Of a stretch of 64,000 nucleotides of DNA, positions 3,858-17,708 are shown in pieces (the stretch's first letter is position 1; every line of letters begins with the position of its first letter). A program made the translations under genes and the position numbers. The stretch lies in assembly GCA_030550515.1 (NCBI GenBank), contig JAUQPE010000027.1, positions 1 to 64,000 of the forward strand, given 5' to 3'. A model generated the notes under the pieces. It was not told the origin of the DNA, did no database searches, and saw only the letters and a list, made by a program, of their open reading frames with translations. This stretch comes from Thermotogota bacterium (GTDB lineage: Bacteria; Thermotogota; Thermotogae; Thermotogales; Thermotogaceae).

Positions 3858-4507
3858 TGCGGAAGATAGAGGTCGCTCTCGTTCGCACGAAGGTCTACGA
3901 GTTGTTGAAGGAGATGATACTGAACCATGAGTTGAAGTTGGGCGAAAAGCTCAACGTGAGAGAGCTCTCGGAGAAACTTGGAATAAGTTTCACACCCGTT
4001 AGGGATGCGCTCCTTCAGTTGTCCAGCGAGGGTCTCGTGAAAGTAGTCCCACGCGTGGGTTTCTTCGTCGTAGAGGTTAACGAGAGGTTCATAAGCGAGA
4101 TAATAGAAACACGGATCATGATCGAGACTTTCTGCCTCGACAGGTACTTCGACGAAATATCGTCTTCGACCGAGGTGTTGAAGATCAGAGACGAGATAGA
4201 AGAAGTCAAGAGGACGCACGACAGAAAACTCTTCGACGATTCGGATGAAAGACTCCACAAGTTGATAGTGAAAGCTTCCAGTAACGAGACTATAACGTCG
4301 ATCTACGAAAAACTTTGGGACAAGATCGACCTCGTGAGGCATTTGAACGAAAGGTACGTGGTGTCAAACGAGGAGCACAAGGAGATAGTGGAAAGCATAT
4401 TGGCGAGGGACAAAGAACGCGCCATCGAGAGCTTGGTGAGACACCTCAAGAACGTGGAAAATGAAACCATCAAAAATCTTCCACTTTTCGAGAAAACAGA
4501 GAGGTGA
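3857..4507 (+). CDS. GntR-family regulator with metal-binding FCD domain (TM0439-like)
   Basis: 216-residue DNA-binding repressor of the FadR/FCD branch. Residues 1-70 form the winged helix, with the recognisable segments LREL-like VRELSEKLGISFTPVRDAL and GLVKVVPRVGFFV. The C-terminal helical FCD domain carries the spaced acid and histidines (DERLHKL, EEHKEI, VRHLKN) that hold a metal ion in the T. maritima homologue TM0439, whose structure is known. Its ATG overlaps the gnd stop in TGATG, and its stop overlaps the next gene's ribosome-binding site, so it is translated with the operon. It probably controls this same operon in response to a uronate or aldonate, but no operator can be identified because the operon promoter lies outside the window. 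Confidence 0.9.
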   Translation: MRKIEVALVRTKVYELLKEMILNHELKLGEKLNVRELSEKLGISFTPVRDALLQLSSEGLVKVVPRVGFFVVEVNERFISEIIETRIMIETFCLDRYFDEISSSTEVLKIRDEIEEVKRTHDRKLFDDSDERLHKLIVKASSNETITSIYEKLWDKIDLVRHLNERYVVSNEEHKEIVESILARDKERAIESLVRHLKNVENETIKNLPLFEKTER

Positions 4508-4512
4508 GAGAA

Positions 4513-5955
4513 ATGGTGTTAAAACTCTTCGACCAACACTTCGGGAGAGGATACCGAGTGTACGAAAAGTCACTCAGAACCACTGAGGGCGCGTCCGCTT
4601 TCCTTGTGAAAGGTGAAGAAGGAAAGAGACTCGTAGTCGTTTCCGAAAAGACGCTGGATTTCTCCTTCGAGAAGAGATACGAGATAGAAGGAAAGATATT
4701 CCTGTTCTGCAAGATGGACCACGAAAACCTGGAGAAACTGGTAAAGCTCTTCCCCGAGTTGAAACCGTCCACTTGTGGGTTGAAACCTTCGTTTGGAACG
4801 GGCGACAGGCTCGGCATCACCACACCGGCTCACGTGAGGGCTTTGGAGGGGACCGGCGTCTTCCCGGTCTTCGCCCAGCAGTCCGTGAGGGAGAACGAGA
4901 GAACCGGTAGAACGTGGCGAGACGTTCTGGCCGACGCGGTCTGGGGGGTCTTCCAAGAAGGGTATCGTGGGGAGTTCGGTGCGGATGCTGACCACGTCAA
5001 GCGCGAGGAAGACCTCCTGAAGGCGGCGGAGGAAGGATTCACCATGTTCACGATCGATCCATCCGAGCACGTCAGAAACCTCTCGAAACTCTCCGAGAGA
5101 GAGAAAAACGAGATCTTGGAGAAAACCTTGAAGAAAGATAGAGTCGACAGGAGATACTTGGGGAAGAAGTACGCGATACTGGGAGAGAAATTCGAGTTCG
5201 ACGAAAAAACGTTGAGAGACGCTGTTGTGCTCTACTACGACGCGATCGCACACGTTGAGATGATGTACCAGCTGTTGAGGGAGAGGACCCGCGAGTTCGA
5301 TTTCGAGGTGTCCGTCGACGAAACCGAGACACCAACTGCCCCGTTGCACCACATATTCATCGTGGAGGAACTCAGAAGGAGAGGCGTGGAGTTCACCAAC
5401 CTCGCGCTCAGATTTGTGGGAGATTGGGAGAAAGGCGTGGATTACAAAGGTGACGTGAAAGCCTTTGAGAGAGAGATCAGGATACACGCTGAGATCGCAA
5501 GGATGCTTCAAGGGTACAAGCTTTCGCTTCACTCTGGTAGCGATAAATTTTCGATCTACAGGCCTTTCGCCTTGGCAACGCAAGGTCTCTTTCACGTGAA
5601 AACGGCAGGAACAAGTTATCTCGAAGCCGTCAAAGTTGTCTCCATGGTTTCCCCCTCTCTCTACAGAGAGATACACCGCGTGGCGTTGGAGAACTTCGAG
5701 AAAGACAGGAAGTCCTACTTCATCTCGGCTGATCTCTCGAAGATACCTGATGTAGAAGAGATCAGAGACGAGGAACTTCCAAAGCTTTTCGAAGATCCAA
5801 ACGTGAGACAGCTCGTTCACGTGACCTACGGTTCCGTGCTGAAGGACACGGAACTGAAGAAGAAAATCTTCGAAGTACTCGAGAAGAACGAAGAACTGTT
5901 CCACGAGGTCGTGAAGAATCACATCGAAAAGCACGTCAAGTTGCTGAAGGGGTGA
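4513..5955 (+). CDS. uxaE: tagaturonate/fructuronate epimerase
   Basis: 480-residue homologue of T. maritima TM0440, which has been described as UxaE, the enzyme interconverting D-tagaturonate and D-fructuronate. This links galacturonate breakdown to the fructuronate-mannonate branch. I recognise it mainly by whole-protein resemblance and by its place between the GntR regulator and SDR gene; there is no short textbook signature. Histidine-rich segments such as LHHIFIVEEL and LSLHSGSDKFS may form the metal and active site (inference). A GTG at 4504 is possible, but the ATG at 4513 is better placed after GAGGTGAG. It is cytoplasmic, with no signal or membrane segments. Confidence 0.88.
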   Translation: MVLKLFDQHFGRGYRVYEKSLRTTEGASAFLVKGEEGKRLVVVSEKTLDFSFEKRYEIEGKIFLFCKMDHENLEKLVKLFPELKPSTCGLKPSFGTGDRLGITTPAHVRALEGTGVFPVFAQQSVRENERTGRTWRDVLADAVWGVFQEGYRGEFGADADHVKREEDLLKAAEEGFTMFTIDPSEHVRNLSKLSEREKNEILEKTLKKDRVDRRYLGKKYAILGEKFEFDEKTLRDAVVLYYDAIAHVEMMYQLLRERTREFDFEVSVDETETPTAPLHHIFIVEELRRRGVEFTNLALRFVGDWEKGVDYKGDVKAFEREIRIHAEIARMLQGYKLSLHSGSDKFSIYRPFALATQGLFHVKTAGTSYLEAVKVVSMVSPSLYREIHRVALENFEKDRKSYFISADLSKIPDVEEIRDEELPKLFEDPNVRQLVHVTYGSVLKDTELKKKIFEVLEKNEELFHEVVKNHIEKHVKLLKG

Positions 5956-5960
5956 AAGGG

Positions 5961-6719
5961 ATGTTCGATCTTAGGGGAGAGATCGCTTTGGTGACGGGTG
6001 GGGCCAGAGGGCTTGGTTTTGGTATCGCGGAAGGGTTGGCCGAGGCAGGAAGCGACGTCATAATCGTGAGCAGAAATTCCGAAGAAGCAAACGAAGCGGC
6101 CAAGCGGATCGAAGAGAAATACGAGGTGAGAGCCTTCAGCTTCGCTTGTGATGTATCAAATTATGAAGCGGTGAGGGAGCTCCTGGAAAGGGTCGAGAGA
6201 GAGTTTGGAAGACTCGACACGGTCGTGAACGCAGCGGGGATAAACAAGAGATATCCAGCAGAGGAATTCCCCATCGAGGAGTTCAAATCGGTGATAGAGG
6301 TGAACCTTTTGGGTACGTACTACGTCTGCAGGGAAGCGTTCAGACTTTTGAGGAAATCGGAAAACCCAACGATAATAAACGTGGCCTCTCTGACCGTCAC
6401 GGAAGTCACCACCTTCAACATATCGGCCTACGCGGCGTCCAAAGGTGGCGTCGCCTCCCTAACGAAGGCTCTCGCGAAGGAATGGGGAAAGTACGGTATC
6501 CGAGTGAACGCGATCGCACCAGGTTGGTACAAAACGAAGATGACGGAGCCCGTCTTCAGCGACAAGGAGAGAGTGGAGTTCATGTTGAAGAGGATTCCAC
6601 TGGGAAGGACCGGCGTGCCGGAAGACTTGAAAGGAGTCGCAGTCTTTCTCGCTTCCAGAGAGTCTGCCTACATGACAGGGCAGATCGTCTTCGTCGACGG
6701 TGGTTGGACCGCCAACTGA
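5961..6719 (+). CDS. short-chain dehydrogenase/reductase (TM0441-like)
   Basis: 252-residue classical SDR. The N-terminal cofactor motif is TGGARGLGFGIA (GxxxGxG), the structural NAAG motif is present, and the catalytic set is Ser in NVASLTV with Tyr and Lys in YAASKGG. The C-terminus PxxLKGVAVFLAS...DGGW is typical of 3-oxoacyl-reductase or gluconate/sugar-dehydrogenase-like members. The ATG at 5961 follows GGGGTG; a GTG at 5952 overlapping the uxaE stop is less likely. Context between the uronate epimerase and the LarA-like epimerase suggests oxidation or reduction of an aldonate or ketoaldonate such as 5-ketogluconate or 2-ketogluconate. That substrate is inference. Confidence 0.85.
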   Translation: MFDLRGEIALVTGGARGLGFGIAEGLAEAGSDVIIVSRNSEEANEAAKRIEEKYEVRAFSFACDVSNYEAVRELLERVEREFGRLDTVVNAAGINKRYPAEEFPIEEFKSVIEVNLLGTYYVCREAFRLLRKSENPTIINVASLTVTEVTTFNISAYAASKGGVASLTKALAKEWGKYGIRVNAIAPGWYKTKMTEPVFSDKERVEFMLKRIPLGRTGVPEDLKGVAVFLASRESAYMTGQIVFVDGGWTAN

Positions 6720-6732
6720 AGGAGTGATGGGA

Positions 6733-8016
6733 ATGAGGTTGTACCTTGAGGGTAATCCCCTCACAGAAGAAGAGATAAGGGAAGGCTTAGAAAAACTCGT
6801 GGAGGACTTAGGAAAGGTAAGGAAAGTTCTGGTCGTTCACACCGACTACACCAGGGTTGATTTCACGCACCTGGTCGCCAGAAACCTTTACAAGCTTCTT
6901 CTGGGAAAAGGCTTGGAAGAGTTCCACACGTTGAACGCGAGTGGCACCCACAGGGCGATGAAGACGGAAGAGTTCGAAAAGAAACTTGGACTGTCCAGAG
7001 AGGACAAAGGCGTCTTCTTCCACAACCATGAGTTCTTCAATCCCGATGCCCTGGAAACGGTAGGTGTGCTCTCCAAAGAATTCGTCTCCGAGATGACGGA
7101 AGGCGACCTGGAGGAAGAGATCCCCATCCGGATCAACAAGATGATCTTTGAGCCTTTCGACGCCATCTTCTTCATCAACGGAACCATACCGCACGAATCG
7201 ACAGGTTTCTCTGGTGGGCTCAAGATAGTGATCCCAGGGATCGCCAGCACCGAAGTGGTCGATACGTTCCATTGGGCAGCGGTCCTCATGGGTATCCCAA
7301 AGCTCATAGGAACGGTGGACAACCCCGCCAGGAGGATAATAAACAGGGCCTCGGAGATCATTTTCGAAAGAGTGAGGGCGCGTTCCTTCACGTTGAACAT
7401 GGTCTACGAGGAGGAAGAAGAAGTGATTCCCAGAGCGCTTTACATAGACGAGGGTTACGAGGGGTTCTTGAGAGCTTACGAGAAAGCGTGTGAACTCAGT
7501 TCAAGAATTCACATCAAGTACATCGACAAGCCCCTCAAGAGGGCTGTGCAAGTGATCGGTCCAGAATTCGATGAAGTGTGGACCGCAGGTAAAGGATCAT
7601 ACAAGCTTCAAAGACCCGGTGTCATGGCCAAAGGAGGCCAGATCATCATATACGCCCCGCACATAAAGCATTTCCACTCCAACCCGCAGATGGACAAGTG
7701 GATCCGGGAGATCGGTTACCACTGCAAAGACTACGTGAAGTGGTACCTCAAGAAACACCCCGACTTCAACAAAAACGTCGCCGCGCACGTTATAAACGTG
7801 AGAGGTGCCGGCACTTTTGATCCAGAAACTGGAAGGGAAGAGTACGATTTCGAGGTGATCCTCGCAACTTCCATACCGGAGGAAGTCTGCAAGTCCGTCA
7901 ACCTCGGTTACATGGATCCCAGCAAGATAAGGAAGGAAGACTTCCTGGATGAAGACAGTCTCTGGATAGAACCTGGTGGAAAATACCTCTACGATCTGAG
8001 GAGGAGTGGGACATGA
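6733..8016 (+). CDS. LarA-family nickel-dependent racemase/epimerase, probable gluconate 2-epimerase type
   Basis: 427-residue member of the lactate racemase (LarA/DUF2088) family. The active-site pattern of LarA is conserved with exact spacing: THR (His73), His154, the lysine that would carry the nickel pincer cofactor in GFSGGLK (Lys164) and His180. His-Lys-His intervals of 10 and 16 match those of Lactobacillus LarA (174, 184, 200). The DYTR motif near residue 38 is also present. Work on the LarA superfamily has described members acting on aldonates, including a gluconate 2-epimerase. The gluconate kinase downstream supports a sugar-acid substrate here, but this is inference. The ATG at 6733 is preferred over those at 6724-6727 because AAGGAG ends eight bases before it. 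The cofactor-making genes larB, larC and larE are not in the window. Confidence 0.85.
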   Translation: MRLYLEGNPLTEEEIREGLEKLVEDLGKVRKVLVVHTDYTRVDFTHLVARNLYKLLLGKGLEEFHTLNASGTHRAMKTEEFEKKLGLSREDKGVFFHNHEFFNPDALETVGVLSKEFVSEMTEGDLEEEIPIRINKMIFEPFDAIFFINGTIPHESTGFSGGLKIVIPGIASTEVVDTFHWAAVLMGIPKLIGTVDNPARRIINRASEIIFERVRARSFTLNMVYEEEEEVIPRALYIDEGYEGFLRAYEKACELSSRIHIKYIDKPLKRAVQVIGPEFDEVWTAGKGSYKLQRPGVMAKGGQIIIYAPHIKHFHSNPQMDKWIREIGYHCKDYVKWYLKKHPDFNKNVAAHVINVRGAGTFDPETGREEYDFEVILATSIPEEVCKSVNLGYMDPSKIRKEDFLDEDSLWIEPGGKYLYDLRRSGT

Positions 8017-9443
8017 TCGTGGGGCTCGACATAGGAACAGAGAGCGCTAGGATCCTGTTCAAATACGGAGAAGAGTGGCAACTTTTCAAAGAAAATTACA
8101 CCATATCTTTCCCAACATCTGATGCGGCGGAGCAAGATCCGAACGAGATACTCTCCGCCGTGATGCGCCTCCTGAAGAAAATTCCCCGAGAAGACGACGT
8201 TCTCTACATCGGTTTGAGTTCCGTCTTTCACAGCATAATGGGTCTCGACGAAGGGATGAACCCCGTCACGAAACTGCTCAACTGGGTGGATAGGAGATCC
8301 TACAGGGAGAAGGAAGAATTGGAGAAGAAGTATGGGATGCGTTTCTTCTACGAGAGGACAGCGTGTCCATTACACCCCATGTACTGGCCGTCGAAGATCC
8401 TGTGGTTGAAAAAGAACTCTGCAGCGAGGAAGTTCTGTTCGATAAAAGCTTACGTTGTGTACAAGCTCACCGGGGAGTTCGTTGAAGAACTGTCACTTGC
8501 CTCCGGAACAGGTTTGATGAACATAAGGACTCTCGACTGGGATGAGGAAATCTTGAGGGTGATCGGGATAGGAAGGGATGCGCTTCCTGTGATCGTGTCA
8601 CCGTACGAAATCGTCGAAGTAAAACGGGAAATCGCCGAAGAACTTGGGTTCAAGCGAGTGTTCTTCGTTCTCGGTGGAGGAGACGGCGTGATGACGAACG
8701 TGGGAGCGAACGCCATGGACAAAGACTCGGCGACCGTCACGATAGGAACGAGCGGTGCGTTCAGAGTGGTCATGGAAAGGCCCGTGATAGACGAGGATGG
8801 AACATCGACGTGGTGTTACCTCATAGACGAGAGGAACTACGTGCTCGGTGGGGCGATAAACAACGGTGGCATCGTGCTGATGTGGCTCAAAGACGTCATG
8901 AGGTTCGACAGTTACGATGAGATTGTGGAAGAGGCGATGAATTCACCGATAGGAGCGAACAACCTCGTCTTCTTGCCGTACCTCAACGGCGAAAGGGCAC
9001 CGAACTGGAGGGAGAGGTACAGGGGAGTGATCGTTGGTCTCACGTCCTCCCACAAACGGAGCGATATCGCCCGGAGCGCGCTGGAAGGGATATGTTTCAG
9101 AATAAAAGACATATATGAGGCCGTGAAAAGAGTCGGAAAAGTTGACCCAAAGAGGATCATCGCCACCGGAGGGTTCACGTCTTCCCCAGAATGGGTTCAA
9201 CTCTTGGCAGACGTGCTGGGAAAGGAGATATGCGTTACCAACGAGGAGAATCTGTCCGCTTTCGGTGCTTACGTGATGGCGCTCAAGGCGTTGGGGGAGG
9301 ACGTGGAGGGATTTCTGAACGAACACTTGAAGGTTGTGAGGGTGTACCATCCAAGGCTTGAAAACACAAAGATTTACGAAAACATCTACTTCAAGTACAA
9401 GTACCTCTACGAGAGGCTCGTGGACTATTTCTACATGACCTGA
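8013..9443 (+). CDS. gntK: FGGY-family carbohydrate kinase, probable gluconate kinase
   Basis: 476-residue FGGY kinase with the two-domain actin-like ATPase fold. Visible motifs are the phosphate-1 loop GLDIGTESARILF at the N-terminus, GTSGAF in the second domain, NGERAPNW near the active site and ATGGFTSSPEW in the adenosine-binding region. Its T. maritima counterpart TM0443 has been assigned as gluconate kinase, giving 6-phosphogluconate, the substrate of the gnd product in the same operon. The ATG at 8013 overlaps the previous stop (ATGA), with AGGAGGAG upstream. It is the last gene of the operon and converges on the aspartase-like gene with only 10 bp between stops. No clear terminator hairpin is visible there. 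Confidence 0.87.
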   Translation: MIVGLDIGTESARILFKYGEEWQLFKENYTISFPTSDAAEQDPNEILSAVMRLLKKIPREDDVLYIGLSSVFHSIMGLDEGMNPVTKLLNWVDRRSYREKEELEKKYGMRFFYERTACPLHPMYWPSKILWLKKNSAARKFCSIKAYVVYKLTGEFVEELSLASGTGLMNIRTLDWDEEILRVIGIGRDALPVIVSPYEIVEVKREIAEELGFKRVFFVLGGGDGVMTNVGANAMDKDSATVTIGTSGAFRVVMERPVIDEDGTSTWCYLIDERNYVLGGAINNGGIVLMWLKDVMRFDSYDEIVEEAMNSPIGANNLVFLPYLNGERAPNWRERYRGVIVGLTSSHKRSDIARSALEGICFRIKDIYEAVKRVGKVDPKRIIATGGFTSSPEWVQLLADVLGKEICVTNEENLSAFGAYVMALKALGEDVEGFLNEHLKVVRVYHPRLENTKIYENIYFKYKYLYERLVDYFYMT

Positions 9444-9453
9444 GATCTTTCTT

Positions 9454-10764
9454 TCATTCTGATCGTCTCATCTTCTCGCCTATTTCCTCTTCGGGAATCC
9501 CGTGAACCCCGGAGAGGAATTTTATGACTTTCGCTAGGTCCCATCCCACTTCGTTCAAAGCTCTAGAAACCGAGTCGTGACCGAACACTTTTATCAGGGG
9601 AACGAGGTTCAACCCAGATTTTTGAAGGAGTTCTTCGCAGCGCTGACGGTTCACCGTGACGAGCGATATGTACGACGACAACGCTTTGCAGGAATTCAAA
9701 AGAAGCGTCAAGGATTTGAGTGTTAGGTGAACCACGATGGGAGCAAGATGGTTCGATTCCAGATTCCCCAGAGCACAGGCATGGCTTATCACCGCATCGT
9801 GTCCTAGGACCAAATGAGACAGCTGTTGAACGTAATCCAAAACCGCTGGGTTGGTTCTCTCAGGATCGATGTCCTCGATGACGGCCGGTAAGACGAGTTC
9901 CCCGATGGCCGTGTTTGGCCCACTCCCAAGGAGTCTCAGGTCGTTTGAGATTTTGTGGAGGTTTACGGCGAGGGATTTCAGCAACCCGTGGACTTCCACG
10001 AAGACGTCCCAGTTCTGCGTGGCGTCTACGAGGTTCTCCGCCTTGGAGATCTTCACCCCTGTGACGTCTCGGACTCTCTCAGCTATCCTGAGCACGTACT
10101 CCTTTGGAGCGCCTAGTCCTGTCCCAACGAGAGTACCCCCTATGTTCACGCCTCTGATCTTTTCCTCCACTTTGTGGAGTCTCCACCTGTCCCTCGTCAG
10201 CGCTTCCGCGTACGCCCCAAACTCTTGCCCCAACATGATGGGTGGGCCATCCATCAGATCAAGCCTCGCAGGTTTCCTCACACCGTAGAACTCTTTCTCT
10301 TTCTCCTGAATTTTCTCTTGTAGATTTATCACCGCTTCAACCAGTCGCCTCAACTTTGAGATGATAGCCACCTTCGCGGCCGTTGGAAACACATCGTTAG
10401 CTGTTTGGTGCAGGTTCACGTGTCTGAAAGGATCCACGAGGAGTTCTTCCCTCTTTCCACCCAGGAATTCGGACGCCCTACTTGCGATCACTTCGTTGAC
10501 GTTCACGTTCAAGAACACGTCAGCCCTACCACAGAGTGGATCCACAACCACGTGGCGCTTTAGCTCCTCCCACTCATCGCAAGCCTTCACGATCGCGTTT
10601 CCCACGCGCTCATCCAAATAACCGAGTTCCACGTTGAGGAGGGCACAGGCCTTCTTCACCATGAAGTAAGCCCAGACGAAAGTTTCATCGAATCTTTCAC
10701 CTGTCGATGGGAATTTTTCCAAGATCTTCCTCGTGTATTTACCGTAGTAGACCGCACCGTTCAC
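9454..10764 (-). CDS. aspartase/fumarase-superfamily protein paired with HydF; catalytic serine loop missing
   Basis: 436-residue protein of the aspartase/fumarase superfamily. Conserved segments are [15 protein letters not shown] (115-129), [18 protein letters not shown] (168-185) and [12 protein letters not shown] (209-220). The next conserved region, [19 protein letters not shown], is also intact. The usual signature loop with the catalytic serine (GSSxMPxKxNP) is replaced by [10 protein letters not shown] at about 297-306. The start is GTG at 10764, overlapping the hydF stop as GTGA; longer forms would run 150 bp into hydF. As I recall, aspartate ammonia-lyase genes often sit beside hydF, so a role in providing ammonia for the azadithiolate bridge of the [FeFe] cluster is possible. 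The lost serine loop makes ordinary aspartase chemistry doubtful. A regulatory, scaffolding or different lyase role is an alternative. Confidence 0.85.
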
Positions 10765-11975
10765 ACTCTTATCTCCTCCATGAAAGGTTTGATCACACGT
10801 TCCAAGACCCCGTGAAGGTAGGATATAACGACACCGTAATTGGTCATAGGTATGTTGAGCCTTCTCGCCATCCTCACCCTTCTCATCATGGAAGCCCTGT
10901 TCAGCACGCATCCTCCACAGTGGATTATCAGTTTGACGCCTTCCAACTCTTCCAAGTCGGGAAACTCTTTCCCAGCCACTACTCTAAATTCCAAATCAGC
11001 CCCCGTGTGGTTCACAAGCCACCTCGGGATCTTGACCCTCCCTATGTCCTCGGTGAGGGGTCTGTGGGAACAACCTTCCATGATCATCACCACGTCACCA
11101 TCTCTGAGCTCTTCGACCTTTCTCACACTCTCCACAAAGTAGCGAAGATCTCCCCTGTACCTGGATTCGACGATGGAAAAGGTGGTGAGCTCGACATCCT
11201 CTGGAACGTCGGAGACGACCTTCATTATGGCCTGAGAGTCGGTGATGACAAGCTTTGGCTTCATGCCTATTCTTTCCATCACGTACCTGAGCTCTCTCTC
11301 CTTGACAACCAAAGCGATCGCTTCTCGATCCAACACCTCCCTTATGGCGTGCACCTGCGGCATGATCAACCTCCCTTTGGGAGCTTCCAGGTCTATGGGA
11401 ACGACCAACACGACGAGATCTCCACTGTCCACGATGTCTCCAAGGTAGGGTATTTCTTCGTCGGTGGGGAGGATCTCGTGGATCGCCTTCCCTACGGTGT
11501 CGAATCCCGCTCTCTTCAGAGCGGAGACACTCAAAACTTTCGTACCAAAGTTTTCTTCGTAGATCTTTCTCAACTGGTCAACCTTTTCCTTCAAGATGTC
11601 CTGCTTGTTTATGACCACCAGGAAGGGTATTTCCATTTCTTTGAGGAGGTTCGCAACTTCTTGTTCGTACGGTGTGGGAACGTCGTCCACGACTAAGATC
11701 GCACAGTCGACCCTGTAGAGCACCCTTCGCGCCCTCTCGACCCTGAGCCGTCCAAGCTCACCGACGTCGTCGAGGCCAGGTGTGTCCACCAGCGTCACCG
11801 GACCGATCGGATAGAGTTCCATGCTCTTGAACACCGGGTCGGTGGTCGTGCCGGCGATGTCGCTCACTATGGAAACGTCTTGTCCCACGAGTGCGTTCAT
11901 GAAGGACGACTTCCCAACGTTCCGCCTTCCCACTATGGCGATGTACTTCCTGAAACCTGCGTCGGGGAGCTTCAT
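10761..11975 (-). CDS. hydF: [FeFe]-hydrogenase maturation GTPase HydF
   Basis: 404-residue scaffold protein on which the 2Fe subcluster of the [FeFe]-hydrogenase is assembled before transfer to HydA. The N-terminal GTPase domain has G1 GRRNVGKSS (17-24), G3 DTPG (64-67) and G4 NKQD (123-126). The middle dimerisation domain is present. The C-terminal domain has the iron-sulfur motif CSH (Cys302, His304) and HCGGC (Cys353, Cys356), matching the CxH...HCxxC pattern and, as I recall, the T. maritima numbering. The ATG at 11975 follows GGAAGGTGG; an upstream GTG would lie inside that site. It is the first gene of a two-gene unit with the aspartase-like gene. HydE, HydG and hydrogenase genes are elsewhere. 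Confidence 0.96.
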
Positions 11976-12003
11976 AACTACCACCTTCCAAAAAAGAAAA
12001 ATT

Positions 12004-12247: not shown

Positions 12248-12778
12248 TTACCTCAACACGTACCCTGTTTCCGTTTTGAAAACCCTCTTCTTGAACCCTT
12301 CCCTTTCGATCGTTTCGTAGTCGTGACCTGCGTGTGCAGGGTACACGGCGAAGAAGACCAAAGGTTCATCCGAGACGTTCACCGTCCTGTGGGCCCAGTA
12401 CGGGGGAATGTACACGACGCTGCTGGGAGTCATCTCGACCGCTTCGAAATCTCCTTCTTTTGTCTGACAGAGTATGAGGCCCTTACCTTGAAGACCCAGG
12501 TAGACCTCCGCTGTCCCTTCGACTACGTGGTAGTGACCTTTCGTCATGAAGTACTCTCCCTTCACATCCCCAGGATACAGGATAGTCACAAGAAACATCA
12601 GCTCTCCCTCTGCTTCGGGGATGGGTGCTTCGAAAACTTCGTACACGACAGGATTTTCCGATTCCAATGTTGGATCGACTGCCTGAAAGATCCCCATGAT
12701 GTCCCGATACCGTCTCACAATTCGCCTCCCTTTGAAATCTATTTCCCGTCCTTTGAACGACACCACAAAAGGTTTCAT
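12248..12778 (-). CDS. cupin-type phosphoglucose isomerase
   Basis: 176-residue cupin protein of the archaeal-type phosphoglucose isomerase family, which interconverts glucose 6-phosphate and fructose 6-phosphate using a bound metal. Metal ligands are His82 and His84 in KGHYH, Glu91 and His130 in YWAHRTV; the 82/84/91/130 spacing equals that of the Pyrococcus furiosus enzyme (88/90/97/136). The segment YPGDVKGEYFMTKGHYH is characteristic. The ATG at 12778 follows GAGGTGA. It is the last gene of the ten-gene sugar operon, so it may isomerise the phosphosugar made by that pathway rather than serve general glycolysis. Cupin isomerases are unusual in bacteria, and transfer from archaea is plausible. 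Another aldose-ketose phosphate substrate cannot be excluded. Confidence 0.85.
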   Translation of the reverse strand: MKPFVVSFKGREIDFKGRRIVRRYRDIMGIFQAVDPTLESENPVVYEVFEAPIPEAEGELMFLVTILYPGDVKGEYFMTKGHYHVVEGTAEVYLGLQGKGLILCQTKEGDFEAVEMTPSSVVYIPPYWAHRTVNVSDEPLVFFAVYPAHAGHDYETIEREGFKKRVFKTETGYVLR

Positions 12779-12806
12779 CGTCTTTCACCTCACGTTCCAT
12801 GGTCTG

Positions 12807-14246
12807 TCAAAAATCGATCCGCACGTGTTTAAGTCTCAAGTACTCATCGTAGACATGGTGGGAGTTCTCCACGCCAAAACCACTCTGTTTCCATCCCCCG
12901 TAAGGGTAGGCGAACTCTCCACCCGCCACGTTGTTCACACCCACGGTGCCCGCTTCTATCATGAGAGCTGCTTTCATGGCCTTCTTCAGGTCTTTCGTGT
13001 ACACGTAAGCCACCAAACCGTACTCGGTGTCGTTGGCTTTCTCTATTGCTTCTTCGAACGTTTTGAACTTCATGATCGGAGCTGTGGGGCCGAACACCTC
13101 ATTCTTCACCACTTTCATCGTGTGATCCGTGTTCACAAGCACGGTGGGTTCGAAGAAGTAGCCTTTTTCGTACTCCGCTCCTTCCGGCTTCTTTCCACCG
13201 TACAACACCTCTGCACCTTTGCTGACGGCCTCCTCGACGTACTCTTTGACCCTCTCCCATCCTTCCTTAGTCGTGAGGGGACCCATTTCCACGTCCTCAC
13301 GGAGGCCGTTGCCGACCTTGATCTTCTTCGTCTCTTCCACGAACAAATCCACGAAGTCTCTATAAACGGACTCGTGGACGTATATCCTGTTCACGGCGTT
13401 ACACACCTGTCCCGCGTTTCTGAAGGCCCTTCTCACAGCCCCTTTGACGGCCTCTTCGATATCGGCGTCTTCGAAGACTATCAACGGGCAGTTTCCACCG
13501 AGTTCCAAAGTTAGTTTCTTCACGGTATCTGCTGCGGACTTCATGATCTTCTTTCCCGCGCCCGTGCTACCGGTGAAAGCAATTTTTGCGATCAAGGGAT
13601 GTTCTACCAAGACTTTTCCGACTTCCTCAACACCACCTGTGACGACGTTCAACACGCCGTTGGGTACACCGGCTTCAAGAAAGCACTCAACCAACTTGAT
13701 CGTGGACAGGGGAGTGTAGTGAGAGGGTTTTGCAACCACCGTGCAACCCGTGGCAAGTGCAGGTCCCAGCTTCCACGCGAGCAAGAGCAAAGGATAATTC
13801 CAAGGAACGATGGCAGAGACCACACCTACCGGTTGTTTCACAACGAGACTGAGTCTGTCGACCTTGTCCGTAGGATACGTTTCTCCAAGTATCCTGAGTA
13901 CCCCTTCCGCGAAGTACTCCATGGAATCGAGGGAGGCCTTCACCTCTTCCTTCGCTTCGCGAAGGGTCTTCCCGTTTTCCAGGGTGAGGATCCTGGCGAT
14001 TTCATCAGCCCTGTCTCGTGCAATCTTCACCGCTTTTTTCATCATCTCTGCTCTCTTAGACGGAGGGGTGGTGCTCCACACCTTGAAAGCTCTGTGGGCA
14101 GCCTTCACAGCCTCTTCTGCTTCCTCTGAACTCAAACTCGGAACGACCCCGACGATTTCCTCGACGTTTGCTGGGTTCCTCACCTCGATAACTCTCCCCG
14201 TCTTCGATTCCACAAATCCTCCATCGATGATGCATTTCAGAAACAC
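12807..14246 (-). CDS. NAD(P)-dependent aldehyde dehydrogenase
   Basis: 479-residue aldehyde dehydrogenase superfamily enzyme. It has the cofactor region PWNYPLLL with AKPSHYTPLS, the GSTGAG turn, the catalytic Glu in ELGGNCP and the nucleophilic Cys in NAGQVCNA. The C-terminal motif NEVFGPTAPI is also present. It most resembles glycolaldehyde/lactaldehyde or semialdehyde dehydrogenases, but substrate cannot be read from sequence. The GTG at 14246 is supported by GGAGGGA six bases upstream. It lies between the GntR/UTRA regulator and the cupin isomerase in the sugar operon, so it may oxidise an aldehyde fragment released during breakdown of the transported sugar or polyol (inference). Confidence 0.9.
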   Translation of the reverse strand: MFLKCIIDGGFVESKTGRVIEVRNPANVEEIVGVVPSLSSEEAEEAVKAAHRAFKVWSTTPPSKRAEMMKKAVKIARDRADEIARILTLENGKTLREAKEEVKASLDSMEYFAEGVLRILGETYPTDKVDRLSLVVKQPVGVVSAIVPWNYPLLLLAWKLGPALATGCTVVAKPSHYTPLSTIKLVECFLEAGVPNGVLNVVTGGVEEVGKVLVEHPLIAKIAFTGSTGAGKKIMKSAADTVKKLTLELGGNCPLIVFEDADIEEAVKGAVRRAFRNAGQVCNAVNRIYVHESVYRDFVDLFVEETKKIKVGNGLREDVEMGPLTTKEGWERVKEYVEEAVSKGAEVLYGGKKPEGAEYEKGYFFEPTVLVNTDHTMKVVKNEVFGPTAPIMKFKTFEEAIEKANDTEYGLVAYVYTKDLKKAMKAALMIEAGTVGVNNVAGGEFAYPYGGWKQSGFGVENSHHVYDEYLRLKHVRIDF

Positions 14247-14261
14247 GAGCGATCCCTCCTT

Positions 14262-15101
14262 TCACGTGTAAGATTCGTACTGCTTTGTGAAGAACTTTGT
14301 GAGTTTCGAAAGACCGTAGAGGGTAGAATTTATCTCCTTGCTGTCCATCAACGTTCTGAAGAGCCTCGTGATGAACCTCGTTCGGTCTGCTCTGTGTTTC
14401 GCCTCGTAATATTCCACGGGTACGTTCCCTTCGGTGTAGGTGATACTTCTCAGGAACAACAGGGGATCTCCCTTCTTGACCTTGAGCAGACGCGCGTCTT
14501 GGGCATCCGCTGGTATCGCCTCTATCGTCCTCTCACCCCAGATGAGTCTTATCCCGTACTTCTTCTCCAAAACCTCGTAAAGGGACTGGTTTTCCAGGTC
14601 CTCTTCCATCAACCCCGGACAGAGAGCTTTCGGAATGAAAGTGACCACGGTCAGTATTGGTTCCTCGTTTATGAACCTCAACCTGTGGATTTTCATCACC
14701 TCGTCGCCTGTCTTGAGGTTCAAGTAATAGGCAAGGAGTTCATCGGCAGGCACCACTTCCCTGGAAAGGAGCTTTGTCTTTGGCTGCAATCCTTGCGCCT
14801 TCATGTCGGCATAGAATCCTGTGAGCCTGGACATGAGGTACTCGTCTATCTTCGGTCTGACGACGATGGTACCCTTTCCTCTCTGACGCTCGATCAATCC
14901 CCTGTTCACCAAGTTACCCAGGGCCTGTCTGATGACGCTTCTACTCACCTTAAACATCTCGCAGAGTTCCTTCTCGCTCGGCAACACATCGCCGGGTTTC
15001 ATCTGCTCCGTGATCCACCTGTAGAGGATCTCCTCCACCTGATGGTAAAGGGGAACTGGCGAATCCTTTCGCAGAGAGAAACCTTCTAGTGAGTCTCTCA
15101 C
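14262..15101 (-). CDS. GntR/HutC-family regulator with UTRA ligand-binding domain
   Basis: 279-residue repressor. The N-terminal winged helix (about residues 12-80) has VPLYHQVEEILYRWI, the LPSEKELCEMFKVSRSVIRQ recognition helix region and RGKGTIVV at the wing. The rest is a UTRA domain of the kind that senses phosphosugars or related small molecules. The GTG at 15101 overlaps the kinase stop (GTGA) and is preceded by AAGGAGG, so it is co-translated with the kinase. It most likely controls its own ten-gene operon, with an operator near the promoter at 23279-23308. Confidence 0.9.
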   Translation of the reverse strand: MRDSLEGFSLRKDSPVPLYHQVEEILYRWITEQMKPGDVLPSEKELCEMFKVSRSVIRQALGNLVNRGLIERQRGKGTIVVRPKIDEYLMSRLTGFYADMKAQGLQPKTKLLSREVVPADELLAYYLNLKTGDEVMKIHRLRFINEEPILTVVTFIPKALCPGLMEEDLENQSLYEVLEKKYGIRLIWGERTIEAIPADAQDARLLKVKKGDPLLFLRSITYTEGNVPVEYYEAKHRADRTRFITRLFRTLMDSKEINSTLYGLSKLTKFFTKQYESYT

Positions 15102-16639
15102 TCTATCGCCTCCTTAAAGAACCTTTGAAACATCTCGTTGACTTTCTCCAAGAGTTCTCTGTAGAAGCCCTTGTATTTGCTGTAAATTCTCATCCACTCT
15201 TCACAAGGTTCTGTCAAGCTCGTGAAACTCACGCTCTTTCTGATGGTTTCTCTCAAATCTTTGAAGAGCCCCACTCCGAATCCCGCCAACACAGCCGAAC
15301 CGAAGACCGCCCCTTCCGTCCTGTTCACCCTGTAATACGGTAGCTCCAAGACGCTGGCCTTTATCCCGTTCCAAAGCTCGCTCCTTGATCCACCACCGAC
15401 GACAACTGCGTGCTTGAAACTCACCTCTGGAAACATCTCCCTTATGACGTCCAAGTAAAAACCGTACTCGTACGCGATGCCTTCGAGGATGGACCTGTAA
15501 AAGTGTGCCCTACTGTGCCCCCAGTTGAATCCAAACCAAACTCCTCTCAAGTGAGGTTGGCTCGGGCAAACCCTTCCACCTAAGTGTGGGATGAACACCA
15601 CACCATCCGCACCCGCTGGTACTCTTTTCGCTTCTTCGTTCAAGACCTCGTAGGGATCCACCCCCATGAGTCTCGCCACATCCCTCTCAGGAGAAGCGAA
15701 CTCGTCTCTGAACCACCTCAAATTCTGTCCCCCACCGTTGATGAAGGCGATTGCGTACCAGATGTCGGGAAAAACGGTGTGAGCCATGAAGAGGGTCCTG
15801 TACCTGGTGTCCGGTTTGTACTCGTCTACCGTTATGGCGAGTACGGAAGCTGTGCCGGCGGAGTCGAACAGAACGAACGGATCGACTACCCCTGCTCCAA
15901 GCATCGCAGCTGCTTGATCTCCACAACCTGCCACGATTGGCGTTCCTTCCAACAATCCCGTACTCTCCGAGGCCTCCTTTGAAATCCTCCCCACCACATC
16001 CCACGGCCTCACAATCCTGGGGAGTTTCTCCGTGGGTATCCCGAACAACCGACAGAGGTCTTCGTCCCATGTGTTCTTCTCTATATCACACAAATTCGAG
16101 AAGTGGATGTAAGTGTAATCGATGAAGACATCTTTCACCTGCAAGTTTCCGAGCTTTGAAGCCACGTACACAGCGGGGACCACAAACTTTTCCATCTTCT
16201 CGAAAAGAGATGGCATTTCTTCTTTCCACCGAAGGATCTTCGGTCCGTGCGAGTAAGTTGGAGGCCCTCCCGCCTTCCTGATCACAAGGTCCACGTACTT
16301 GTACATCTTCTCGATGTAAGGCGAACACCGGGTGTCAAGCCACGAATCAAAAGGCATAACGGGCTCCAGATGCCTGTCCACCGCCCCTAGTCCAGACATT
16401 TGACCATCGAAGGCCACAGCCACGATTCTTTTGGGATCCACCGATGCCTTCTCCAAACATTTTTTCATGCAATCGGTGGCTATGTTCAAAATCTCGTTCA
16501 AGTCTTGCTCGGCCCAACCCGGCCTTGGCTGATAGAGTGGGACTTCTGAAAAAGCGTCGGCCACCAGCTTGCCCTCTTCATCGAACAAGGCTGCTTTTAT
16601 GTTCGTCGTACCGAGGTCGACCCCCATCACGTAGTACAT
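15098..16639 (-). CDS. FGGY-family sugar kinase, xylulokinase-like
   Basis: 513-residue FGGY kinase. It has the N-terminal ATP-binding loop GVDLGTTNIKAALFDEEGK, the FGGY catalytic-aspartate region AGCGDQAAAMLGAG and FDSAGTASV, and the C-terminal adenosine motif VVVGGGSRSELWNGIKA. Overall it resembles xylulokinase and related ketose or polyol kinases. The ATG at 16639 lies one base after the preceding stop. It follows a zinc dehydrogenase in the same operon, which would suit oxidation of a polyol to a ketose and then phosphorylation. The exact sugar is unknown. Confidence 0.87.
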   Translation of the reverse strand: MYYVMGVDLGTTNIKAALFDEEGKLVADAFSEVPLYQPRPGWAEQDLNEILNIATDCMKKCLEKASVDPKRIVAVAFDGQMSGLGAVDRHLEPVMPFDSWLDTRCSPYIEKMYKYVDLVIRKAGGPPTYSHGPKILRWKEEMPSLFEKMEKFVVPAVYVASKLGNLQVKDVFIDYTYIHFSNLCDIEKNTWDEDLCRLFGIPTEKLPRIVRPWDVVGRISKEASESTGLLEGTPIVAGCGDQAAAMLGAGVVDPFVLFDSAGTASVLAITVDEYKPDTRYRTLFMAHTVFPDIWYAIAFINGGGQNLRWFRDEFASPERDVARLMGVDPYEVLNEEAKRVPAGADGVVFIPHLGGRVCPSQPHLRGVWFGFNWGHSRAHFYRSILEGIAYEYGFYLDVIREMFPEVSFKHAVVVGGGSRSELWNGIKASVLELPYYRVNRTEGAVFGSAVLAGFGVGLFKDLRETIRKSVSFTSLTEPCEEWMRIYSKYKGFYRELLEKVNEMFQRFFKEAIE

Positions 16640-16640
16640 C

Positions 16641-17708
16641 CTATCCCCCCTGTTGGTTGAGCACCACAACCTTCAATTCCTTCCCTGCAGCGAGTCTCTC
16701 GAAGGCATTTGGAAGCTCCTCAAGCGTTACAAAGGAGGAGACAAGCCTTATCAATTTTTCTCTCAAGTCTTCCCTGTGTACGACCATGTTGAGGGCTCTT
16801 CGGTAGTACTCGACGTCTGCACCTGTCGTACCCGTCAGCGTGATTTGGTTGTAATGGATCACGTTCGTGTTCAATGTGGGGAAGGGTGTCCCCTTCGGTA
16901 ATCCCGCAAAGAAACTCACTCTCCCGAGTTTTGAGACAAGTTCAAGAGCTTGAGCTTGCGCTTCGGGAACAGGAACGCTCACTATTACCACGTCGAACCC
17001 CTTCCCATCCGTTAGATCCTTTTTCAAGATGTTGAGATCCTGCTTTTGAGGATTGATCCCAAGGTTGACACCGAGTTCCATCGCCACTTCAAGTCTCTGT
17101 TCGTTTGGATCGATCACGACTACCAGCGATGCCCCCATCATCCTTGCAGAGAGTGCGTTCAAGATACCCATGAAGCCAGCCCCAAACACGAGTACCCTGT
17201 CTCCAGGTTCCAAACCGAGGTTGCTCAAATTGTACAGGCAAGTCGAGAGAGGTTCCACCAGTGGAACCACTCCCTCCGGTACCGCCGCCGTCAACTTCAA
17301 CACGTTTCCCTGTTCGAAGGCTTTTCGCGGGACAAACATGTATTCGGCAAAGGCACCATCGATGGTGATGCCAAAAGCATCGTAGTCCGCGCACAAGTTG
17401 TATTTCCCCATCAGGCAATACTCGCACTTCCCACACCCCAGGTTAGGGGCCACGAAGACCCGGGTACCAACGGGGAAATCCTCTTCGTAGGACCTCGATA
17501 CCTCCACGATCTCACCGAAGATTTCGTGCCCCAAAACCCTTCTATCTCCCTCCCTTATCTTGAAGTGTCCACTCTTGAATATCTTCACGTCGGTGGCACA
17601 AACGGCACTGGAGATAACCTTGATGATCGCTCCTTCACCTTTGAGTGTGGGTAAAGGAACGTCTTCAAGACCCACTCGACCCACCCCGTTGAAGACAAAG
17701 GCCTTCAT
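16641..17708 (-). CDS. zinc-dependent medium-chain dehydrogenase, polyol/threonine dehydrogenase-like
   Basis: 355-residue MDR-family enzyme. Catalytic-zinc ligands are in VCATDVKIF and GHEIFGE, and structural-zinc cysteines in GCGKCEYCLMGKYNLC. The Rossmann glycines are in VFGAGFMGIL, followed by VVIDPNEQR; an acidic residue there favours NAD. This type oxidises secondary alcohols such as sorbitol, xylitol or threonine. Its ATG at 17708 directly abuts the Gfo/Idh stop at 17709. In this operon it may make the ketose that the FGGY kinase then phosphorylates (inference). Confidence 0.9.
   Translation of the reverse strand: MKAFVFNGVGRVGLEDVPLPTLKGEGAIIKVISSAVCATDVKIFKSGHFKIREGDRRVLGHEIFGEIVEVSRSYEEDFPVGTRVFVAPNLGCGKCEYCLMGKYNLCADYDAFGITIDGAFAEYMFVPRKAFEQGNVLKLTAAVPEGVVPLVEPLSTCLYNLSNLGLEPGDRVLVFGAGFMGILNALSARMMGASLVVVIDPNEQRLEVAMELGVNLGINPQKQDLNILKKDLTDGKGFDVVIVSVPVPEAQAQALELVSKLGRVSFFAGLPKGTPFPTLNTNVIHYNQITLTGTTGADVEYYRRALNMVVHREDLREKLIRLVSSFVTLEELPNAFERLAAGKELKVVVLNQQGG

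Follow-up and report, generated by a model that had tools for sequence, protein, structure and literature searches.

The hydF locus and its neighbourhood

The window, i.e. the whole stretch of 64,000 nucleotides that was analysed (contig JAUQPE010000027.1 of the Thermotogota bacterium assembly GCA_030550515.1), carries on its reverse strand an intact hydF and, directly downstream, a gene for a protein of the aspartase/fumarase superfamily, hereafter the window lyase. The gene pair comprises the following features:

9454-10764, reverse strand: open reading frame of the window lyase (436 codons, GTG start), an aspartase/fumarase-superfamily protein and putative pseudo-aspartase
10761-11984, reverse strand: hydF, intact, encoding the [FeFe]-hydrogenase H-cluster maturation GTPase (TIGR03918)
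10761-10764, reverse strand: GTGA, the 4-bp overlap of the lyase start codon with the hydF stop codon, read from the sequence
10773-10779, reverse strand: GGAGGAG, a Shine-Dalgarno-like run inside the end of hydF, 8 nt upstream of the lyase GTG

HydF was identified with 537.6 bits against TIGR03918 (cut-off 325.55). The 4-bp overlap with hydF noticed in the preliminary description was confirmed; the lyase is co-encoded with HydF, and an overlap of identical geometry occurs in Thermotoga relatives. A longer, overlooked N-terminus of the lyase was considered and rejected, as the in-frame upstream stretch within hydF has no DYLG motif. The two genes are convergent to a sugar-acid gene cluster. 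The sugar-acid utilisation region surrounds the pair (window positions 4504-9443 and 12248-16669) and encodes an SDR dehydrogenase, a nickel-dependent hexonate epimerase-like protein, two FGGY kinases, an aldehyde dehydrogenase and a GntR regulator.

Fold and active site of the window lyase

The window lyase reached 187 bits against the Pfam profile Lyase_1 (cut-off 27) and thus belongs to the aspartase/fumarase superfamily, whose members are homotetramers with composite active sites. Its best solved relative is the aspartase AspB of Bacillus YM55-1 (E 6e-82). Against PRK12273, aspartate ammonia-lyase, it scored 416.7 bits and remained under the curated NCBIfam cut-off of 510, while three of four intact hydF-linked relatives scored 590-640 bits and the fourth, from Treponema, 502 bits. 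An AlphaFold2 model of the monomer (pLDDT 85, pTM 0.83) predicted a well-formed superfamily fold. The best 50 Foldseek matches of this model were nearly all aspartases or fumarases, with TM scores of 0.84-0.92 and a value of about 0.9 for AspB. Within this predicted fold, four active-site regions differ from those of the relatives:

10516-10530, reverse strand: lost first active-site motif, residues 79-83, GRADV (GGAGT in relatives)
10399-10404, reverse strand: changed second active-site motif, residues 121-122, TA (ST of QSTND in relatives)
10258-10263, reverse strand: lost third active-site motif, residues 168-169, LD (TQ or TE in relatives, TH in AspB)
9847-9876, reverse strand: replaced catalytic loop, residues 297-306, located by alignments (GSSIMPGKxNP in relatives)

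The alignments bore out the earlier observation that the serine loop GSSxMPxKxNP is replaced. EDIDPERT stands in place of the GSSIMPGK of relatives (QAGSSIMPGK to I--EDIDPER), which in the codon view results from a net in-frame deletion of two codons and many substitutions, and the superfamily signature GSSxxPxKxN with the catalytic serine is absent. The accompanying statement that the remaining landmarks of an aspartase have been preserved proved wrong, since only Asn142 and Asn326 survive among the AspB residues named below; nearly all substrate-binding residues are changed and both termini are shortened. In the fuller alignment GGAGTS has become GRADVF, QSTND has become QTAND and GRTQ has become ARLD. 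The substrate-binding residues T101, S140, T141, N142, T187, K324 and N326 of AspB correspond to V, T, A, N, L, R and N, so that N142 and N326 alone are retained from the core set. T101, T141, T187, M321 and K324 are replaced by V83, A122, L168, D300 and R303 of the window lyase, and changes also affect the two serines of the loop, S140 (now T) and the glycines G98, G100, G317 and G323 (AspB numbering). The exchange of His188 for Asp is less telling, because intact hydF-linked relatives have Gln or Glu at this position. About 12 residues are missing from the N-terminus, including the DYLG motif, together with the KMTGLGY tail at the C-terminus of relatives. Altogether, the window lyase departs from 51 relatives at 18 columns that are invariant among them, and also at the glycine of the C-terminal tail. 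In a leave-one-out control, a single relative, the divergent L054, had lost at least four invariant positions (11, none of them catalytic).

Catalysis by AspB has been assigned to Ser318 in the loop, and its alpha-carboxylate pocket consists of Thr187, Met321, Lys324 and Asn326, close to which lie His188 and Asn142 (PMC11744663). From this known AspB chemistry, the window lyase is very likely catalytically dead and would release no ammonia from aspartate. That it is still an aspartase, performing the same chemistry with shifted residues, seems highly improbable: N142, N326 and the overall predicted fold are kept, but the catalytic serine and the carboxylate-binding T187, M321 and K324 are all changed (PMC11744663), and two residues are deleted from a loop that must close for catalysis. 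Even less credit can be given to an assembly or sequencing artefact. The assembly consists of 29 contigs and the sequence is known from one copy; against this, the four motifs contain many separate in-frame substitutions within an open frame of 436 codons, and the adjacent hydF shows nothing unusual and falls among the same relatives.

Distribution of the loss

A survey of 103 Thermotogota genomes yielded 55 with a strong homologue, and 51 Thermotogota relatives were included in the comparison. In every other readable hydF-linked relative of the phylum (51), the loop and the substrate-binding set are intact. All but three of the Thermotogota copies with a readable neighbourhood in a HydF-bearing genome adjoin hydF; the exceptions to adjacency lie at contig ends and in two genomes without HydF. 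An intact loop was also present in hydF-adjacent copies of Archaeoglobaceae, Paenibacillus and Treponema and in those of further Spirochaetota and Bacillota. A second species with the same loss was found neither among the 103 Thermotogota genomes nor in a scan of the wider genome contigs with the window protein.

The alignment of hydF-adjacent aspA-like genes proposed as a check thus showed that the loop change is shared by no other readable copy. A subfamily-wide change was rejected on these grounds, and the suggestion of a subfamily with a different chemistry was not borne out, the loss being seen in one genome and the other copies, from four phyla, being intact. Thermotoga copies with 66-69% identity to the window lyase have the intact serine loop. 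Such close homologues had been named in the preliminary description as counting against its proposal and as the sign of a local mutation. They do exist, yet the term local mutation does not describe a loss which is active-site-wide and at the same time selective. Judged by these comparisons, the loss is lineage-specific. The gene shares its position and its overlap with the intact orthologues of the order, to which it is 57-69% identical, and is evidently the direct descendant, at the original locus, of an ordinary hydF-linked aspartate ammonia-lyase.

A second candidate for a loop-less copy, L058 in genome G041, was rejected because of a frameshift; the next frame reads QAGSSIMPGKVNP and the loop is intact. 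This hydF-linked aspartase is split by the frameshift into two otherwise normal halves, either by a sequencing error or as a fresh pseudogene.

The hydF-clade signature helix

Outside the active site, the window lyase has preserved an element of its clade:

10153-10194, reverse strand: retained hydF-clade signature helix, residues 191-204, common to hydF-linked aspartases across phyla

The signature RDRWRxxKxEERxR or a close form of it occurs in hydF-adjacent lyases of Thermotogota, Archaeoglobi, Spirochaetota and Bacillota and is absent from the free aspartases and fumarases that were compared. It was noted in the window lyase and the loci L067-L071, L083-L087, L112-L125 and L141-L143; the most divergent hydF-linked form is RFRWRVNKAIDWIR in L155. 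Two Bacillota copies, L144 with the full signature and L145 with the partial signature RDRRRFGAVEERLGQ, have no hydF within the stretch examined and are possibly copies that outlived hydF or moved away from it. Of the non-motif positions specific to the hydF clade, i.e. those conserved among hydF-linked lyases and differing in free aspartases, the window lyase has kept 18 of 20, and 32 of 35 in the closer group. Since shared ancestry alone could give a clade signature, the helix may be taken as a lead to a HydF contact, not as proof. As a sequence tag, it separates hydF-linked from catabolic aspartases, which Pfam-based neighbourhood counts cannot do.

Maturation machinery and ammonia sources

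The association of hydF with aspA was published by Pagnier et al. 2024 (PMC11736057). According to this study, either AspA or SdaA was able to provide the bridge nitrogen of the H-cluster in vitro, and genomes with aspA in a hyd operon always carry a second ammonia-lyase (PMC11736057). The idea that the gene represents an undescribed component of [FeFe]-hydrogenase maturation had therefore been anticipated, both for the hydF-aspA link and for AspA as the nitrogen source. HydF binding by any AspA was not found to be demonstrated in the papers on AspA and HydF.

The genome that contains the window lyase also encodes a HydG/HydE-like pair (contig C7), three [FeFe]-hydrogenase-like proteins, a glycine-cleavage H-protein (GcvH) and a threonine ammonia-lyase. 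Neither a second aspartase that would cover the lost activity nor an SDH_alpha-type serine ammonia-lyase as a substitute was found in this genome. Its two other Lyase_1 genes were rejected as aspartases; their best matches were adenylosuccinate lyase (purB-like) and argininosuccinate lyase (argH-like).

Among 71 HydF-bearing Thermotogota genomes, 19 are without a hydF-type lyase, from which it follows that the lyase is dispensable to HydF and that AspA can be replaced. These genomes point to several losses of the partner. HydF without a hydF-type aspartase was recorded in G035, G038, G046-G052, G056-G059, G061, G062, G064, G066, G068 and G077. Two further observations concern hydF itself. Genome G060 has, besides an intact hydF at 605946-607115, a second hydF in two overlapping fragments (G060:C1:913069-914027), apparently a broken duplicate. 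The Archaeoglobaceae loci L067 and L068, which have the hydF-aspA arrangement, contain near their right ends (about 10780-11197) a further, partial HydF match on the opposite strand, which corresponds to the C-terminal third of the protein.

Selection on the window lyase

The alignment has 82 columns invariant in the 51 relatives. With the motif set chosen by the analyst from known active-site regions, the window lyase has lost 12 of the 21 invariant columns in active-site motifs vs 7 of the 61 outside them (Fisher p 7e-5). The changes at these seven are mostly conservative. The HydF of the window is changed at 4 of the 190 positions invariant among relatives; for the same 11 relatives the lyase has lost 44 of 225, and no other taxon is so unbalanced. 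On a fixed tree, the window branch measured 0.578 substitutions/site for the lyase vs 0.201 for HydF. On this branch the lyase changed at about 2.9 times the rate of hydF; elsewhere the ratio is near 1, and the remaining trees are nearly equal in length. The faster evolution and the lost terminal pieces fit a relaxed constraint.

Both observations would also be expected of a relic in decay. In such a case, AspA would no longer be needed for maturation and the gene would be drifting under weak or recently lost constraint, its frame having escaped interruption by chance or because the gene, as a neighbour of hydF, has to be translated through. The 19 of 71 HydF genomes that lack the lyase and the alternative ammonia source in the genome are in line with decay, as is the short neutral phase implied by the scaffold taken alone (about 0.2 substitutions/codon), after which the reading frame stays open with a probability of about 0.1. 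The concentration of the loss in the active site and the 18 of 20 clade-specific positions kept argue against it, and so do the codon analyses. In a codon model with branch lengths common to hydF and lyase, the omega of the scaffold was 0.067 on the window branch (background 0.035) and that of the motifs 0.18 (background 0.012), values that are rough because the branch is long and its synonymous sites are saturated; the branch represents a single genome and is undivided by a congener. A single shared neutral phase, as simple decay would imply, was rejected against separate neutral fractions of 16% for the motifs and 2.3% for the scaffold (2dlnL 28.9). A neutral phase of the length needed for the motifs (about 1.4 substitutions/codon) would leave many stop codons, and simulated drift of this length never left the frame open; the reading frame of the window lyase contains none. 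We therefore consider decay unlikely, though an explanation of some weight.

The codon model supports the view that the scaffold and the hydF-clade residues are probably still under purifying selection, as far as substitution patterns in one genome can reveal it. The same codon pattern would follow equally from an adaptive replacement of the site and therefore argues against simple decay, not for one particular function. One form of adaptive replacement would be a new enzyme, the former active site having been remodelled for a different reaction or ligand. The replacements are strongly charged (R80, D82, D169, E297, D298, D300, E302 and R303) and might together bind a metal or another cation on the tetramer. 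Such a site could conceivably serve HydF, a cation-gated GTPase whose activity is raised by ammonium and other monovalent cations (PMC11736057). The non-random character of the replacements and the conserved scaffold agree with this possibility. However, the new residues are known from a single sequence, with conservation not seen in a second, and bulky side chains in place of glycines would tend to fill the pocket. As no family of such proteins was found in the 103 Thermotogota genomes and the wider contig scan, we regard a new enzymatic activity as improbable.

Interpretation and comparison with known systems

On balance, we favour the reading that the window lyase is a lineage-specific pseudo-aspartase with a dead site, retained for some non-catalytic function in which HydF is the most likely partner, the ammonia being obtained from elsewhere. 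An ordinary hydF-linked aspartate ammonia-lyase has had its active site destroyed in place and its scaffold kept. The most likely function of the protein would be that of a structural element or docking partner of HydF while the dithiomethylamine bridge is installed, and ammonium would come from other sources, e.g. threonine ammonia-lyase. A non-catalytic job is probable since scaffold and hydF-clade residues appear to be under purifying selection; HydF as the partner we infer from the co-translation with HydF and the retained hydF-clade helix. Of the two alternatives offered in the preliminary description, the non-catalytic maturation partner is thus the better one, its partnership with HydF being the conjectural part. 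Retention for a non-catalytic purpose appears better supported than decay or a new activity, both of which keep some probability because the reading rests on one genome.

More tentatively, HydF-linked aspartases in general may have a second, non-catalytic docking or scaffold role, exerted via the RDRWRxxKxEERxR helix and neighbouring clade-specific residues. Only this role would be left in the window lyase, which would make it a natural separation-of-function mutant.

So far, the presence of AspA beside hydF has been explained by the supply of ammonium for the bridge ligand of the H-cluster. A dead copy raises the question whether AspA acts on HydF as a protein, e.g. in a local delivery of ammonium, or by steadying a complex with the glycine-cleavage H-protein. 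A copy that is dead and keeps its fold would constitute a natural test of the non-chemical help given by an enzyme. If the gene were merely decaying, it would be a dated case in which maturation came to manage without AspA, which agrees with the absence of the lyase from the 19 HydF genomes mentioned above.

Within the superfamily, delta-1 crystallin is a pseudoenzyme. It and other inactive members resemble the window lyase in that the scaffold was retained without the original activity. Delta-1 crystallin arose from argininosuccinate lyase and serves eukaryotes as a structural protein, whereas the window lyase is bacterial and derived from an aspartase; unlike in the case of delta-1 crystallin, no paralogue covers its lost activity. 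The window lyase lacks the catalytic motifs of its family, the feature by which pseudoenzymes are defined in PMC10211241. No aspartase pseudoenzyme was described in the open papers searched, nor was a description of the dead variant and the helix signature found there; the hydF-aspA association itself is known. AspB of Bacillus sp. YM55-1 (PDB 1j3u, 3r6v) shares the predicted fold and, in the structural comparison, 35-36% identity with the window lyase and differs in possessing the set T101, S140, T141, T187, H188, S318 and K324, which the window lyase is without. The closest known system is the HydF-linked aspA of hyd operons (PMC11736057). Like these genes, the window lyase lies directly downstream of hydF with a 4-bp overlap, shares 57-69% identity with its counterparts in the order and contains the signature helix; it differs from them by the absence of the serine loop, of nearly all substrate-binding residues and of full termini.
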